Shown: one piece after another, positions 29,813 to 36,985 of the stretch
Layout: each line of letters opens with the position of its first letter
Position numbering within the stretch: position 1 is the stretch's first letter
Source: Bacteroidales bacterium Bact_09
GTDB lineage: Bacteria; Bacteroidota; Bacteroidia; Bacteroidales; UBA932
NCBI GenBank assembly: GCA_001603455.1
Contig: LUZA01000080.1
Span: 1-41,361, forward strand
Direction of reading: 5' to 3'
DNA: 41,361 nt
Notes under the pieces: model-generated
What the model saw: only the letters and a program-made list of their open reading frames with translations
Told to the model about the DNA's origin: nothing
The model's database searches: none
Program-made: the position numbers and the translations under genes

Positions 29813-29818
29813 TGGTTT

Positions 29819-29968
29819 CCGAGCCCGGCTTGGTGCGCAACAAAACCAGCTCCCGAGCCCGGCTTGGTGCGCAACAAGAAAGCGGGCACGTTTCTATATA
29901 TCTGGTTTTCAGACGTTTAAATGTCTATGCAAAAAAGAGTTGCGCACCAAGCGCGGTTTGGGAAAGCG
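29819..29968 (+). repeat. REPIN-like palindromic element, copy A (with an extra half unit)
   Basis: The full element has arms CTTGGTGCGCAAC (29863-29875) and GTTGCGCACCAAG (29939-29951), perfect over 13 bp and 89 bp from end to end. The left arm is preceded by CCGAGCC-C-GGCTTGG, itself a near-palindrome. A duplicated left half, 25 bp identical, starts 34 bp earlier at 29819. The internal part contains a small hairpin (AGAC...GTCT). No coding capacity is evident. It occupies the space between tRNA-Lys and trkH. Confidence 0.88.
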
Positions 29969-29993
29969 GTGAATAACAGATGTAAAATTTATC

Positions 29994-30038: not shown

Positions 30039-31430
30039 ATGAAAAAGAGACTTATAAAATTTCGTGAGAAAAGTCTGCGTTTTTTTAAGTACGATTTTGA
30101 GACCATCCTGACTTTTGGGATCAAATTAGATCAGCCGTACCTCAGGTTATCTGTGGGTTACTTGTCTTATATCATTTTTGGAGCGCTTTTGCTTACGCTT
30201 CCGTTTATGCGGAGAGAACCTGTGGGTTTTTTGGACAACCTATTTACAGCTACATCGGCGGTATCTACCACAGGACTTGTAACGGTGGACATGGCCATGA
30301 ACTATAATCTAACCGGTCAGATTATTGTCCTATTTCTTATCCAGTTAGGCGGTTTAGGCTATATGACAGTTAGTTCCTTTGTTATGCTTAAGCTGACCAA
30401 GCATTTTACGATGATAAAAAAGCGTGTGCTTCAGGCCGAGTTTTCAGTACCGGGAGATTTAGATATAAAAAATCTGGTACCAAATATCGTGGGATTTACT
30501 TTTATTTTCGAAGCGGCAGGAGCTCTCCTTTTATATCTTTTTTTTAGGTCGAGCGGAGCGGACAATCCCCTCTGGAGCGCCATATTCCATAGCGTCTCGG
30601 CTTTCTGTACGGCCGGATTCAGCATTTATTCAGATAATCTGGTCCAGTTTGACACCAACATAGGAGTCAACCTGGTCATAATGGTTCTGTGTTATGCCGG
30701 CGCCATGGGATATATTGTTATGTATGATCTGTGGAAACGAATAAGGATAAGGAAACACAAGATCAGTTTCACAACAAAGGTGATTGCATTCGTGACACTC
30801 ATCCTGACCGTATTCGGCACAACAGAATTGTTTCTGTTCGAGCCGGGCATCAGGCATTTTTCCTGTTTTGACAGGTTTTTGATTTCACTATTCCAAACGA
30901 TGTCTGCCCTTACAACGGTTGGCTATAATACGGTGAACGTCGGAGGTTTCCTGCCTATCTCGTTGATGACCATAACGCTTATTATGTACTTTGGCGCGTC
31001 GCCTTCGGGTACCGGCGGGGGTCTGAAATCTACAACAACATCTGCCGTTTTTGCATACGTTAAAAGCAAGCTAAGCCAACAGCGTGATACCTATTTGTTT
31101 AAACACAGGATCCCGTCCTATAGGGTGGACAGTGCCCTAACCACAGTTTTGCTCTATTCTTTTGTCTTGCTTGTTGGTTCCTATCTTTTGGCTGCCACCG
31201 AGCGTGACACCAGTTATATAAAACTGATCTTCGAGGCAGGATCTGCTCTCGGTACGGTGGGCCTTTCCACCGGGATCACTGCGGATTTATCGGCTTGGAG
31301 CAAGGTCATATTGATTTTCCTGATGTATATAGGCCGAGTCGGAGTCCTGACGATCGGATACTCTATGCTCCTGAGAATGAGAGCCCGCACCAAACTGATC
31401 GGTGGGGCCGAGACTGACCTTGCTATATAG
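30039..31430 (+). CDS. trkH: TrkH/KtrB-type potassium transporter subunit
   Basis: The 463-residue protein carries four membrane-pore-membrane repeats with selectivity-filter-like glycine segments: 'TATSAVSTTGLVTVD', 'HSVSAFCTAGFSIYSDN', 'QTMSALTTVGYNTVN' and 'EAGSALGTVGLSTGI'. These fit the K+ pore of the TrkH/KtrB superfamily. The length is closer to KtrB than to enterobacterial TrkH. The regulatory RCK subunit (TrkA/KtrA) that normally accompanies it is not adjacent on either side. The stop codon lies 15 bp before copy B of the palindromic element. Confidence 0.92.
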   Translation: MKKRLIKFREKSLRFFKYDFETILTFGIKLDQPYLRLSVGYLSYIIFGALLLTLPFMRREPVGFLDNLFTATSAVSTTGLVTVDMAMNYNLTGQIIVLFLIQLGGLGYMTVSSFVMLKLTKHFTMIKKRVLQAEFSVPGDLDIKNLVPNIVGFTFIFEAAGALLLYLFFRSSGADNPLWSAIFHSVSAFCTAGFSIYSDNLVQFDTNIGVNLVIMVLCYAGAMGYIVMYDLWKRIRIRKHKISFTTKVIAFVTLILTVFGTTELFLFEPGIRHFSCFDRFLISLFQTMSALTTVGYNTVNVGGFLPISLMTITLIMYFGASPSGTGGGLKSTTTSAVFAYVKSKLSQQRDTYLFKHRIPSYRVDSALTTVLLYSFVLLVGSYLLAATERDTSYIKLIFEAGSALGTVGLSTGITADLSAWSKVILIFLMYIGRVGVLTIGYSMLLRMRARTKLIGGAETDLAI

Positions 31431-31445
31431 GGGCAGCCCCGGGCG

Positions 31446-31567
31446 CGCTTTCCGAGTCCGGCTTGGTGCGCAACAAGAAAGCAGGCGCGTTTCCATATAT
31501 CTGGTTTTCAGATGTCTGAATATCTATGCAAAAAAGAGTTGCGCACCAAGCGCGGTTTGGGAAAGCG
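31446..31567 (+). repeat. REPIN-like palindromic element, copy B
   Basis: Arms CTTGGTGCGCAAC at 31462-31474 and GTTGCGCACCAAG at 31538-31550 are again 89 bp from end to end. The inverted repeat extends outward with mismatches to CGCTTTCC (31446-31453) and GGAAAGCG (31560-31567). The internal sequence matches copy A at about nine of ten positions. It begins 15 bp after the trkH stop, so it may also fold in the trkH mRNA and end transcription. Confidence 0.9.
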
Positions 31568-31584
31568 TGCAGGCACAAATGGTG

Positions 31585-31627
31585 TAGCGCACCAGACTCG
31601 GCTTGGAGGGGTGGGCTTGGAGGGGTG
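31585..31627 (+). repeat. Fragments of the palindromic element and a 14-bp tandem repeat
   Basis: AGCGCACCAGACTCGGCTTGG resembles fused element ends. It runs into GGCTTGGAGGGGTG repeated twice (31600-31613 and 31614-31627). The second GGCTTGG supplies the TTG that sits 20 bp upstream of the RAYT -7 box. Confidence 0.65.
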
Positions 31628-31647
31628 AAAAGAATTTTATATTTTTG
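31617..31647 (+). promoter_or_regulatory. Promoter of the RAYT gene (TTG-N20-TATTTTTG)
   Basis: TATTTTTG at 31640-31647 matches TAnnTTTG, and TTG at 31617-31619 is 20 bp upstream. Predicted transcript start is near 31654, so the mRNA leader contains all three 32-bp repeats. The -33 part lies within an element-derived repeat. Confidence 0.6.
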
Positions 31648-31657
31648 TATAGCTCTA

Positions 31658-31753
31658 AAAGTTGGGATGGATATGAAGCGTAAGATTTGAAAGTTGGGAT
31701 GGATATGAAGCGTAAGATTTGAAAGTTGGGATGGATATGAAGCGTAAGATTTG
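31658..31753 (+). repeat. Perfect 3 x 32-bp tandem repeat over the RAYT start site
   Basis: Three identical, contiguous 32-bp units occupy 31658-31689, 31690-31721 and 31722-31753. Each contains GGATGGATATGAAGCGTAAG, i.e. two in-frame ATGs with an identical upstream context. In units 1 and 2 the frame meets TGA after MKRKI (stops at 31688-31690 and 31720-31722). Only unit 3 continues into the transposase. Because 32 is not divisible by three, each unit acts as a separate closed minicistron. Confidence 0.93.
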
Positions 31754-32612
31754 GCATATAAGTGTGCAGGGAAACGGTGGGCAGAGTGTGTTTCTGACAA
31801 ATGGTGATATTCTTCACGCCATTGATCTTCTGGGAGTTTTAAGTGTTTATTACGGGATTAAAGTTTGGGCTTATGATTTTATGTCCAATCATTATCATTT
31901 GATAATTGAGTGCGATAATCCTCAATATTTTATGCAAGCTTTTAGACAAAGTTATACGAGATATTTTAATACTGTTCATAATTCTTTCGGTTCTGTCGGC
32001 CGTTATGGATATAGCGCAGGTTTGTTGAATAGTCCCGAAAAGCTTGTGGCGAAGTTGATATATGTCCTTAGAAATTCTGTACGTCACAAGTTACAGTCGC
32101 ATCCGTATGTAGATCCGTACAATTCAGCTAAATACTATTTCTCTGAAGATCAGCGCATCAAGTGGCCGACGTTGAAACCAGCAGGTCCGAACTCAAAGTT
32201 GTCGCATTCTCACAAGATGATCCCTGAACATTTTCTGATCGATAAAAACGGACATATTTTTACACGTAGTTTTCTGCAATACAGAAAGGTGGAGGCTTGC
32301 TTCCAATCATATGCCAAGTTTATGAGTATGATAAGCAATCCAACGGATAAGGAGTTGGCAGAAGAAGAGGACAGGCAGCTTGATGACAAAAGAAACTATG
32401 TCAAAAATACTTGTGTAAAGATCACCGATCTTCAACTTAGCGAAATGATAATCAACAATATAAAACCAAATACTATTGCTTCATTGTCACATACCGAGAT
32501 CGTATCCATTGCACGGTATTTCCGAAACAATTATCCTGTTTCGGTACGCCAGTTAAGCCGGGTTTTTGGGATCCCCGAATCCACACTCCGATGGAGGATG
32601 CGGTGCAGCTGA
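31737..32612 (+). CDS. REP-associated tyrosine transposase (RAYT, Y1/IS200-like)
   Basis: The 291-residue protein (ATG 31737; ATG 31731 is also in frame) belongs to the Y1 HUH transposase superfamily, TnpA-REP branch. The metal-binding HUH motif is His52-Tyr53-His54 in 'FMSNHYHLIIE', and the likely nucleophile is Tyr109 in 'KLIYVLRNSVRHKL', the position of the Y-I-H-x-N-P motif of RAYTs. The C-terminus (about 269-291) has a helix-turn-helix-like 'SVRQLSRVFGIPESTLRW'. RAYTs are single-copy, domesticated relatives of IS200/IS605 transposases that act on REP palindromes. Copies B and C of a palindromic element lie on each side, the latter overlapping the stop. The gene looks more AT-rich than its neighbours. 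Confidence 0.9.
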   Translation: MKRKIWHISVQGNGGQSVFLTNGDILHAIDLLGVLSVYYGIKVWAYDFMSNHYHLIIECDNPQYFMQAFRQSYTRYFNTVHNSFGSVGRYGYSAGLLNSPEKLVAKLIYVLRNSVRHKLQSHPYVDPYNSAKYYFSEDQRIKWPTLKPAGPNSKLSHSHKMIPEHFLIDKNGHIFTRSFLQYRKVEACFQSYAKFMSMISNPTDKELAEEEDRQLDDKRNYVKNTCVKITDLQLSEMIINNIKPNTIASLSHTEIVSIARYFRNNYPVSVRQLSRVFGIPESTLRWRMRCS

Positions 32613-32745
32613 GCCGGGCTTGGAGCGCAACAAGAACGCAAATGCAATTCCATGTATTTGGAATTCAGCAGTTTGAATGTTTCAGAAAAAAGAACTTGCG
32701 CACCAAGCCGGGCATGGATAGAGTGCGCACCAAGCCGGGCTTGGA
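32612..32745 (+). repeat. REPIN-like palindromic element, copy C, with extra half unit
   Basis: The left arm CTTGGAGCGCAAC starts at 32619 and the right arm CTTGCGCACCAAG ends at 32707, 89 bp in total as in copies A and B, with one mismatch in each arm. Internal sequence is more diverged. A further end unit follows, including the perfect palindrome CCAAGCC-G-GGCTTGG at 32730-32744. The element begins at the last base of the RAYT stop codon. Confidence 0.87.
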
Positions 32746-32813
32746 TAGAAAATTTATATTTTGCAAAAACGTTCACAATTTATATCTTGCAGAAGATTAT
32801 CTTGTAGAAGATT

Positions 32814-33809
32814 ATGAAACCGGAAGAACAATATTCGCGACAAACTGTAAGCGAAACTGCCGAAGAGTATTTTTTACGGGGTGTTTATTATTACGACAAA
32901 GGATTGGACGCGAAAGATGCTAACGAGGACGGGGCCGCTGCATTTTTTACCGAAGCCTTTGAGTGCTTCCTTAAGGCAGCAGATATGGGTAACCTTCACG
33001 CCCAGAATCAGGTAGGGATCTGTTATGAGTTCGGATTGGGTGTTAAGCAGGATTGTGAAAAGGCCATCGAATGGTACACCAAAGCAGCTGAAAAAGGTTG
33101 TGCCAGGGCTCAAAACAATCTCGGGTGCTGTTTTTCCAGCGGAGACGGCGTAGAACAAGATATGCACGAAGCCTTTGAATGGTGCAGGAAAGCGGCCAAA
33201 CAGGGGAATGCCAAGGCTCAGTACAACCTCGGCGTATGTTATGAAGAAGGTATAGGTATCGAAAAGGATGCAGATCAGGCTGTTTTCTGGTTCAAGAAGT
33301 CGGCCGAGCAGGGATTTGTGCGGCCCAGGAAACAGTCGGGGTTTTATTTTGAGCTGGGCTGTTGCGTTCAGAAAGACCCGCATCAGGCCTTTGAGTGGTT
33401 CAGAAAGTCGGCCGAGCAGGGAAATGCGCATGCGCAGAAAAATTTGGGGGACTGCTACCGCAAAGGCCTCGGCGCAGAACAAAATTACCGAAAGGCCTTC
33501 CAATGGTACAGCAAAGCCGCATCGCAAGGGCATGTCGAGGCACAGGTCGAGCTGGGGGATCGCTTTTTTTACGGGCAGGGAGTAATGCAGGATCACGATC
33601 AGGCGTTTTTTTGGTATAAGAAGGCGGCCGAGAAAGGCGATATGCATGCCGAGAACCGTGTAGCGTATTGTTACAAACACGGTTACGGGGTTGAGCAGGA
33701 CGAGGATGCTGCCATGAAGTTGTACCTGAAAGCGGCCAAAAAAGGCGATGAAGATTCTCTGCTGGCAGTTGAACTTCAATGTCAGCTGCAAAGGAAAAGG
33801 AGTCTCTGA
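32814..33809 (+). CDS. Sel1-repeat protein
   Basis: The 331-residue protein has seven full and one partial Sel1-like repeats of 36 residues from about residue 45 on, each of the form 'A-x-x-W-[FY]-x-K-A-A-x-x-G-x-x-x-A-Q-x-x-L-G-x-C-Y-x-x-G-x-G-V-x-x-D'. Sel1 repeats form an alpha/alpha solenoid used as an interaction scaffold. There is no signal peptide, so it is probably cytoplasmic. A 15-bp tandem repeat (CTTG-AGAAGATTAT, with C or T between) at 32786-32815 runs into the start codon. It sits between the RAYT/REPIN region and pqqD; no partner is obvious. Confidence 0.9.
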   Translation: MKPEEQYSRQTVSETAEEYFLRGVYYYDKGLDAKDANEDGAAAFFTEAFECFLKAADMGNLHAQNQVGICYEFGLGVKQDCEKAIEWYTKAAEKGCARAQNNLGCCFSSGDGVEQDMHEAFEWCRKAAKQGNAKAQYNLGVCYEEGIGIEKDADQAVFWFKKSAEQGFVRPRKQSGFYFELGCCVQKDPHQAFEWFRKSAEQGNAHAQKNLGDCYRKGLGAEQNYRKAFQWYSKAASQGHVEAQVELGDRFFYGQGVMQDHDQAFFWYKKAAEKGDMHAENRVAYCYKHGYGVEQDEDAAMKLYLKAAKKGDEDSLLAVELQCQLQRKRSL

Positions 33810-34375: not shown

Positions 34376-36985
34376 TTATGCGCGCCGCAGTCGCAGACTA
34401 TTGAGCACAACCGAAACAGAGCTGAAAGCCATGGCGGCACTGGCCCACATCGGATTCAGAAGCAGTCCGTTGACGGGGAACAAGATCCCGGCCGCAATGG
34501 GTATTGCAATGACATTATAGATAAATGCCCAGAAGAGGTTTTGTTTGATGATGCGTACGGTTTTCTTTGATAATTGAACGGCTTTGGGCAGCAGCATCAG
34601 GTCCGAGGTAGTCAGTGTGACCATTGCTACGTCCATGGCAATATCGGTACCCTTACCCATGGCCATACTCACATCGGCCCGTGCAAGTGCCTGTGAATCA
34701 TTTATCCCGTCGCCCACCATCGCTACAAATTTCCCTTCTGATTGCAATTGCATGATGTATTCTTCCTTTTCCTGGGGTAGGACACCCGAGATCACGTGCC
34801 GAATACCGAGTTCCGAAGCGACCTTTTCGGAAGTCTTTTTGGAATCGCCCGTGAGCATGTGTACCTCGATGTTCATTTTGTGCAAGGTATTCAGCGCCTC
34901 CGGAGTAGTGTCTTTTATTGGATCTTTGAGCGCTGCAACAGCCAGGATCTGTGTTTGGTTGCCAAAGAACAGGACGCCTTTACCTTCTGATTGCCAATTG
35001 CTTGCCATTGTAATCAATAATTCCGGGGAGCGATAATCGTGCTGTTCATTACCGCCGACTTTGGATTCCCGGAAATGCGAGGTTGGATAGATGTGTGGTT
35101 CAATGGAATGCATGGATGAATTGATATTGATGTGGGATTCTCCGAATTGCCGTAAAGGATTGTCCCGATCTGAAATATTTTGCTGGACAAAATTGAAGTT
35201 ACCTGCACGAAATTTTTGTCCTGCGTGGGAAAACTCTATTCCCCTGCCCAGGATATTCTCAAAATTGTCCAGTCTTACTGGTTGGATATTCTTTTGCTTA
35301 AGATACTCTACAATGGCATGGGCAAGGGGGTGCTCAGATTTCATCTCGCCTGCAAGAAAAACGGACAATTCTGTATCGGAGGGATCTTTTGTCCAAATAA
35401 TTGTATCGACCTCGGGTTTTCCTTTAGTCAATGTACCTGTTTTGTCCAGCACTACACAGTTGATTTTACCCATATTTTCGAGTGCAAACGCGTCCTTAAT
35501 CAATATATGATTTTGAGCTCCTTTTCCAATCCCGACCATCAAAGCTGTTGGAGTTGCCAGACCCAGAGCGCAAGGACAGGCGATTACCAGAACTGAAACG
35601 CCAGCCAGCAGGGCTATTGTGAAAAACGAACCTCCGCCGATAACCATCCAGAGGACAAAAGTGAGAAGCGATATGTTAATCACAACAGGGACAAAAATCG
35701 CGCTGATTTTGTCCGCAATTTTTTGCACAGGAGCTTTACTTCCCTGCGCTTCTCTGACCATCCGGACAATATGTGCCAGGACTGTGCCGCTGCCTACCTG
35801 GGATGCCTTTATGGTAAGGGATCCGCATTGATTGATGGTACCTGCCAGAACTTTGTCGCTGGGTTGTTTTTCTACAGAGATCGGTTCGCCACTGATCATA
35901 CTTTCATCAACGTATGAAAGTCCCTCATTCACAATGCCGTCCACCGGAATGCGTTCTCCGGGGCGCACTACGATCAGGTTCCCGATCTGCAGTTGTGCCA
36001 CCGGCACTTCTTTTTCGGTAAATACTTCAGCGCCATCTGTCTGCAACTGGACAGGGGACAGCGGTACGGTAAGATTTGATGCAGAGGCAGCAGCTGAAAC
36101 GGAACCAGGGCCAAAGCCGGGTGCAGAGGCAGAACCAGAATCCGCAGCAGCTGAAACGGAACCATGGCTAAAGCTGGGTGCAGAGGCAGAACCAGAACCA
36201 GAACCAGAACCGGAACCAGAACCAGAACCCGCAGCAGCAGCCTTGGCGGTGGGGCAGGCAGGAGTTGCAGAAACAGATCCACTACCTGCCTCGGCTTTTA
36301 TTAGTATGCGGGCGGTTTTGGGCTGGAGGCCCATCAGACCCCGGATGGCCGAACTGGTGCTGTTTTTGGCGCGTTCTTCCAGGAGTTTTCCCAGGAGCAC
36401 GAATGCCAGGATCATCCCAGCCGCCTCGTAATAAACATGCACATCGATGCCTTTTTCCTGAATAATCCCGGGGAATAGGGTGTTGAACAGGCTGAAGATA
36501 AAAGCCACTATAGTGCTGAGGCTGATCAGCGTATCCATATTGGCCGAGCCTTTCCGGAGCAATTTCCAGGCACGGATATAAAAATCACGGCCCGAAAAGA
36601 ACATGATGGGGAGAACCAGCAGGAGCATGACCCAATGTGCTGGTTTCCAATCCATAAAGATCATCGCCACCAACATCAACGGGATGGCAAACGCCCATGC
36701 GACGATCGTTTTTAATTTAAGTAATTTATACTTTTTTTGTTCTTCCTGAGCCTGTCGCTCCTCCACATTTTCCTCCGGAACGATCAGCCTGTATCCGATG
36801 GCCTGCACCTCGTTCTGTATCTGGTACGGGCTCAGCTTTTCGGGGTCATATTCTACCAGCAGTGTGTTTGCGGCGAAATTGACCGAGGCTTGCGTGACTC
36901 CAGGCAGTGACTGGACCTTTTTTTCGATATTCATGGCGCATCCGGCACAACTCATATCTAAGACCGGAAAGGTGTCTTTTTGCAT
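34376..36985 (-). CDS. copA: Copper-type P1B-ATPase with low-complexity inserts
   Basis: The 869-residue protein has an N-terminal heavy-metal domain with Cys13 and Cys16 ('MSCAGC'), membrane segments, the CPC ion-binding motif at 470-472 ('VIACPCALGLATPTA'), phosphorylated Asp514 in 'DKTGTLTKG', the 'SEHPLAHAI' motif and the hinge 'MVGDGINDSQAL'. It exports Cu+ from the cytoplasm. A Gly/Ser/Ala insert of about 95 residues (231-325) splits the actuator domain between 'QPKTARILI' and 'VPVAQLQIGN'. A second, His/Ser-rich insert of about 50 residues lies in the nucleotide-binding region after 'GNFNFVQQN'. Both are atypical. It ends 124 bp from pqqD, convergently. Confidence 0.93.
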   Translation of the reverse strand: MQKDTFPVLDMSCAGCAMNIEKKVQSLPGVTQASVNFAANTLLVEYDPEKLSPYQIQNEVQAIGYRLIVPEENVEERQAQEEQKKYKLLKLKTIVAWAFAIPLMLVAMIFMDWKPAHWVMLLLVLPIMFFSGRDFYIRAWKLLRKGSANMDTLISLSTIVAFIFSLFNTLFPGIIQEKGIDVHVYYEAAGMILAFVLLGKLLEERAKNSTSSAIRGLMGLQPKTARILIKAEAGSGSVSATPACPTAKAAAAGSGSGSGSGSGSGSASAPSFSHGSVSAAADSGSASAPGFGPGSVSAAASASNLTVPLSPVQLQTDGAEVFTEKEVPVAQLQIGNLIVVRPGERIPVDGIVNEGLSYVDESMISGEPISVEKQPSDKVLAGTINQCGSLTIKASQVGSGTVLAHIVRMVREAQGSKAPVQKIADKISAIFVPVVINISLLTFVLWMVIGGGSFFTIALLAGVSVLVIACPCALGLATPTALMVGIGKGAQNHILIKDAFALENMGKINCVVLDKTGTLTKGKPEVDTIIWTKDPSDTELSVFLAGEMKSEHPLAHAIVEYLKQKNIQPVRLDNFENILGRGIEFSHAGQKFRAGNFNFVQQNISDRDNPLRQFGESHININSSMHSIEPHIYPTSHFRESKVGGNEQHDYRSPELLITMASNWQSEGKGVLFFGNQTQILAVAALKDPIKDTTPEALNTLHKMNIEVHMLTGDSKKTSEKVASELGIRHVISGVLPQEKEEYIMQLQSEGKFVAMVGDGINDSQALARADVSMAMGKGTDIAMDVAMVTLTTSDLMLLPKAVQLSKKTVRIIKQNLFWAFIYNVIAIPIAAGILFPVNGLLLNPMWASAAMAFSSVSVVLNSLRLRRA
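36087..36230 (-). repeat. 57-bp and 6-bp tandem repeats in copA
   Basis: Two 57-bp units start at 36087 and 36144 and encode 19-residue repeats of the S-G-S-A-S-A-P-x-F type. They pass into a hexanucleotide array of AACCAG/AACCGG units at about 36190-36229 encoding (Gly-Ser)n. All units are multiples of three. Confidence 0.85.

Follow-up and report, generated by a model that had tools for sequence, protein, structure and literature searches.

Tandem triplication of the start region of a divergent REP-associated transposase gene in a Bacteroidales genome

REP-associated Y1/HUH transposases (RAYT or TnpA-REP; Nunvar 2010, PMC2817692; classes in PMC6006769) have a HUH/Y1 fold, their genes are flanked by inverted REP pairs with cognate REPs elsewhere in the genome, and they evolve faster than the neighbouring genes. 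The gene described in this work shares these features, its best structural match being the TnpA-REP 4er8, but it does not reach the cut-off scores of Pfam and NCBIfam, carries the tyrosine motif YVLRNS in place of YIxxNP, has a long C-terminal helical part and is accompanied by nine exact 12-mer REP matches, as against more than 100 copies in the known systems. The start of this gene is in addition repeated, and three other groups of described elements offer themselves for comparison. VNTRs and minisatellites in bacterial leaders are short perfect head-to-tail units which probably expand and contract by slippage; perfect tandem units are found here as well, but each holds a whole start region with its own stop, copy number never shifts the frame, and the three-unit array is known from one genome. 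The mycobacterial interspersed repetitive units (MIRU, PMC12548453) likewise provide repeat-encoded short ORFs at a gene start, ending close by; MIRUs are however dispersed and apparently mobile with a stop/start overlap of -4 nt, whereas here the duplication is local and the gaps are of +8 and +14 nt. Bacterial minigenes and short upstream ORFs, such as mg2 of axe-txe (PMC8708949) and the bicistronic designs, also have a very short ORF immediately ahead of the start of a gene. Those have been tested with reporters; the minicistrons described here are predicted from the sequence and are, in distinction to them, copies of the gene's own first codons.

The window, i.e. the whole stretch of DNA that was analysed, comprises 41,361 nucleotides of a contig of Bacteroidales bacterium Bact_09. 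Positions 31658-31753 consist of three letter-identical 32-bp units (AAAGTTGGGATGGATATGAAGCGTAAGATTTG) arranged head-to-tail on the plus strand. The preliminary description had given three perfect 32-bp units at 31654-31753; the units are as described, but the start is not, since bases 31654-31657 belong to the unique leader. In unit 1 (31658-31689) the ATG codons at 31667 and 31673 lead to a TGA at 31688-31690, and unit 2 (31690-31721) is an identical closed minicistron running from the ATG codons at 31699 and 31705 to a TGA at 31720-31722. Tracing of the frames yields MDMKRKI or MKRKI followed by the stop in both units and confirms that only unit 3 (31722-31753) opens into the transposase, with ATG codons at 31731 and 31737, a frame of 293 or 291 codons respectively, and a TGA at 32610-32612. 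The TGA of units 1 and 2 straddles the junction between two copies; the equivalent triplet in unit 3 is TGG, which leaves the frame open as far as 32612. Whatever the number of units, it is the last one that adjoins the gene, and the transposase frame therefore remains intact, in agreement with the earlier claim that a change in copy number causes no frameshift. The triplicated array is far beyond chance and rare in this genome. Outside the window, four perfect tandem arrays with a period of at least 12 were found in approximately 381 kb of the same genome, a background estimated from two samples of stretches from other contigs; their periods are 12-17, and none of the arrays in these 381 kb has three copies of at least 20 bp. 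The 32-bp unit was not found elsewhere in the genome, allowing up to three mismatches, nor was the exact 32-mer found in viral contigs.

The product of 31737-32612 (plus strand, 291 aa) is identified as a divergent RAYT on the basis of its modelled fold and its REP flanks. It is called divergent because its scores fall below the curated cut-offs, which are thresholds for automatic naming and no biological feature: 20.9 bits against 23 for Pfam Y1_Tnp (E 4e-4) and 21.2 bits against 80 for NCBIfam REP_Tyr_transpos (E 2e-4). The motif SNHYH occupies residues 50-54, and the candidate catalytic tyrosine is Y109 within YVLRNS; N-H-x-H (residues 51-54) and Y109 are invariant. Solved structures searched with a sequence profile yielded no significant match. 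The AlphaFold model (14 family members; pLDDT 87, pTM 0.87) has the HUH/Y1 single-strand transposase fold, and in the fold search its best match, well above the next group of structures, is the REP transposase 4er8 bound to a REP hairpin (Z 14.3, rmsd 2.8 Å, 145 residues). Together with the REP hairpins on both sides of the gene, this bears out the RAYT identity proposed in the preliminary description. No close protein relatives of the RAYT were found in IMG/VR and genome contigs with a single-sequence query; an alignment query gave 14 loci, matching the congeners from the genome search. The dN/dS ratio relative to the orthologue described below is 0.20 for the RAYT and 0.10 for the neighbouring TrkH; the RAYT is under purifying selection and evolves faster than TrkH, as has been reported for RAYTs with respect to their neighbours (PMC2817692).

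REP hairpins are present upstream (31436-31575) and downstream (about 32610-32749) of the gene. The upstream one is a REPIN-like inverted REP pair with TTGCGCACCAAGC arms (pattern matches at 31462 on the minus and 31539 on the plus strand), and it folds as one long hairpin of -68.8 kcal/mol. The downstream region contains a plus-strand REP, detected by TRF and by the REP pattern, which is itself tandemly duplicated (27 bp x 2, 96%; about 32696-32749). The REP 12-mer has nine exact matches in the genome, three of them outside the window, a count by exact matching which leaves out degenerate copies; further REP copies are found on contigs C89 and C148. A search of Rfam over 31400-32850 gave no match. 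Upstream of TrkH, at 29815-29975, there is a REPIN composed of an inverted REP pair and one extra REP, which closely resembles the one upstream of the RAYT.

The orthologue of the RAYT in the congeneric Bacteroidales bacterium UBA5326 occupies the equivalent position, TrkH again lying upstream and the TrkH-RAYT order being kept, and matches at 74% in the amino acid sequence of the RAYT and at 86.5% in the upstream DNA. It reads ACGGTT-ATGAAG, i.e. the first ATG of the unit is absent there and the second is conserved. As the orthologue keeps only this ATG, the true RAYT start is most likely at 31737, and the minicistron MKRKI followed by the stop. Close relatives have N-termini of the form M-x-x-K-[IL]-W-H, or else an M-W that directly precedes [FY]-H; in the AlphaFold model the first strand begins at residue 4. 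The UBA5326 leader aligns to exactly one unit, the alignment scoring 122.0 for one unit and 87.5 for three, so that the upstream ORFs are not conserved in this orthologue. A tandem repeat across the start was found in none of the 42 other distinct RAYT-family leaders examined, some of which represent the same gene from two records, the number of independent genes being somewhat smaller. The single-copy state is therefore likely to be ancestral, as judged from one true orthologue, and the triplication, given a single-copy orthologue and 42 unrepeated leaders, appears derived and so far private to one lineage. There are zero differences among the three copies, against a dS of 0.56-0.77 between the two species at this locus; since the copies are identical, the array is either young by comparison with the divergence of the two species or subject to homogenisation.

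Besides the array, three further short tandem duplications were detected by TRF in the RAYT element: a perfect one of 14 bp x 2 (GGCTTGGAGGGGTG) in the REP tail (31600-31627, plus strand), the duplicated downstream REP, and one of 15 bp x 2.2 in the RAYT flank (32783-32815). Four TRF arrays thus fall within approximately 0.9 kb of RAYT flank; the 381 kb sampled elsewhere in the genome contain 20. The excess is smaller relative to the repeat-rich window itself (P about 5e-4), and the RAYT flanks of the whole family hold 12 arrays in 10.4 kb versus 21 in 40.5 kb further away, about twice as many per kb, the comparison being post hoc throughout. The density of the three other duplications is far above the genome background, and the array is therefore most simply explained by a locus prone to duplication. 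Such local duplication may plausibly have been caused by the REP hairpins and by the cleavage of single strands. No microhomology was seen at the unit borders, and simple slippage thus fails to account for the first step of duplication.

The minicistrons follow from the length of the unit. Every segment of 12-60 bp containing the ATG in the single-copy leader was duplicated in silico to three copies, and 98% of the segments of non-triplet length close the first start before the last one. As 32 nt is not a multiple of three, each extra copy meets the junction TGA, and closed minicistrons are the automatic outcome of a non-triplet tandem duplication at this start.

A predicted Bacteroidota promoter (TTG-N20-TATTTTTG; 31617-31647, plus strand) was found by consensus scan with an exact TAnnTTTG box, directly ahead of the array, and as a consensus match it agrees with the earlier statement that the predicted promoter precedes the three units. 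The start of transcription expected from it, at approximately 31653-31656, borders on unit 1. Its significance is suggestive only, because there are five exact matches of this kind on the plus strand of the window. The orthologue has a related but weaker box, and an E. coli sigma-70 scan detected no promoter before the array. Internal promoters within the unit were considered and rejected, TAAGATTTG having one extra base between TA and TTTG. The mean unpaired probability predicted for the last start is 0.55, 0.46 and 0.50 with one, two and three units, respectively, and folding of the leader with one to three units showed no consistent masking of it. Bacterial 30S subunits bind internal starts directly, without scanning from the 5' end, and the two earlier starts need not therefore intercept ribosomes on their way to the third.

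The explanation which we consider probable is a recent tandem triplication, i.e. a small minisatellite, of the RAYT start region from a single-copy ancestor within a duplication-prone, REP-flanked element, the two minicistrons being by-products of the 32-nt unit length. Most likely the array arose by accident when the DNA was copied and did not evolve as a control switch. Transcription from about 31655 would give an mRNA with three equal start sites 32 nt apart, any of which could be loaded by 30S subunits; ribosomes starting in unit 1 or 2 would stop after 5-7 codons, 8-14 nt before the next ATG, and may restart there by coupling. The net effect on the transposase level is probably modest, and the array may be nearly neutral. 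Against this explanation it can be held that the three perfect copies span exactly one start region in a genome with very few perfect arrays of such a size, and that unit 1 begins at the predicted transcription start.

The preliminary description had suggested that the array may be a way to keep the transposase low. According to this reading ribosomes are caught at the closed frames of units 1 and 2, transposase synthesis is thereby held down, and its level is tuned by the number of copies; the geometry of the minicistrons is indeed real, the promoter match lies before all units, and start sites 32 nt apart, about one 30S footprint, may exclude each other sterically. We nevertheless regard it as unlikely, because no long-term role is shown by an array that is private and young, with a likely single-copy ancestor and unrepeated leaders in the family, because closure of the frames is the default, and because the last start is predicted to be about equally accessible whatever the number of units. 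Initiation without 5' scanning also argues against it, as does the spacing, since 14 nt separate the stop of unit 2 from the start of the gene (8 nt if the first ATG is taken): coupling is effective over stop-start distances of up to about 25-30 nt, within which translation of an upstream ORF promotes, and usually helps, that of the downstream one (PMC12548453). The same gaps speak for the opposite reading, in which the minicistrons deliver ribosomes in the manner of a bicistronic design and raise or buffer expression, more copies giving a higher dose. Upstream ORFs of short length are able to supply ribosomes, and txe expression is increased by a minigene of two codons (PMC8708949). Here the second ATG of each unit, like that of the orthologue, has an A at -6 but a G at -3, whereas A at both positions favours initiation in Flavobacterium (PMC6847099); the minicistrons are putative, the array is again young and private, and serial reinitiation as a function of the array seems to us quite unlikely. 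As the 14-nt gap allows coupling as well as repression, the direction of any effect cannot be read from the sequence.

An error of assembly or a mixed population, in which the true copy number would differ and most cells might have one or two units, has to be considered as well, since the genome is a draft of 165 contigs, the named relatives are metagenome assemblies, and assemblers err at short exact tandem arrays. The array is however only 96 bp long, less than the usual length of a read, and is situated far from the ends of a 41-kb contig, and assemblers collapse such arrays more often than they expand them; we consider this improbable. Least probable, and very unlikely in our opinion, is a frame-safe contingency locus, in which slippage alters the number of start-plus-stop units and serial restart or competition steps the transposase dosage with the frame unbroken. 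Nothing in the present evidence favours either this or the capture of ribosomes by decoy starts. If the number of units did set transposase output, the locus would offer a simple, frame-preserving route for slippage to tune translation. Read as a triplication by accident, it is a clean natural example of a start region duplicated by a non-triplet length, with closed minicistrons as the automatic result, and a caution against reading design into such leaders.

Some differences and repeats in the surroundings may be mentioned. Between the RAYT and a cation-transporting ATPase there is a Sel1-repeat gene (32814-33809) which was not found in the UBA5326 locus, where the ATPase follows directly after the RAYT. 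Tandem repeats at 36087-36229 inside the ATPase gene encode a Gly/Ser/Ala-rich linker, and the ATPase of the orthologous locus has a different repetitive stretch. In another genus, a perfect 36-bp x 2.25 tandem repeat (L020:1301-1382) is located upstream of a distant RAYT-like gene, the start of which it does not span. The genome of Bact_09 itself carries a second RAYT (L002:432-1295), 59% identical to the first, whose REP differs (GCGCGGCAAACCGGG type), which suggests separate RAYT-REP pairs in one genome.
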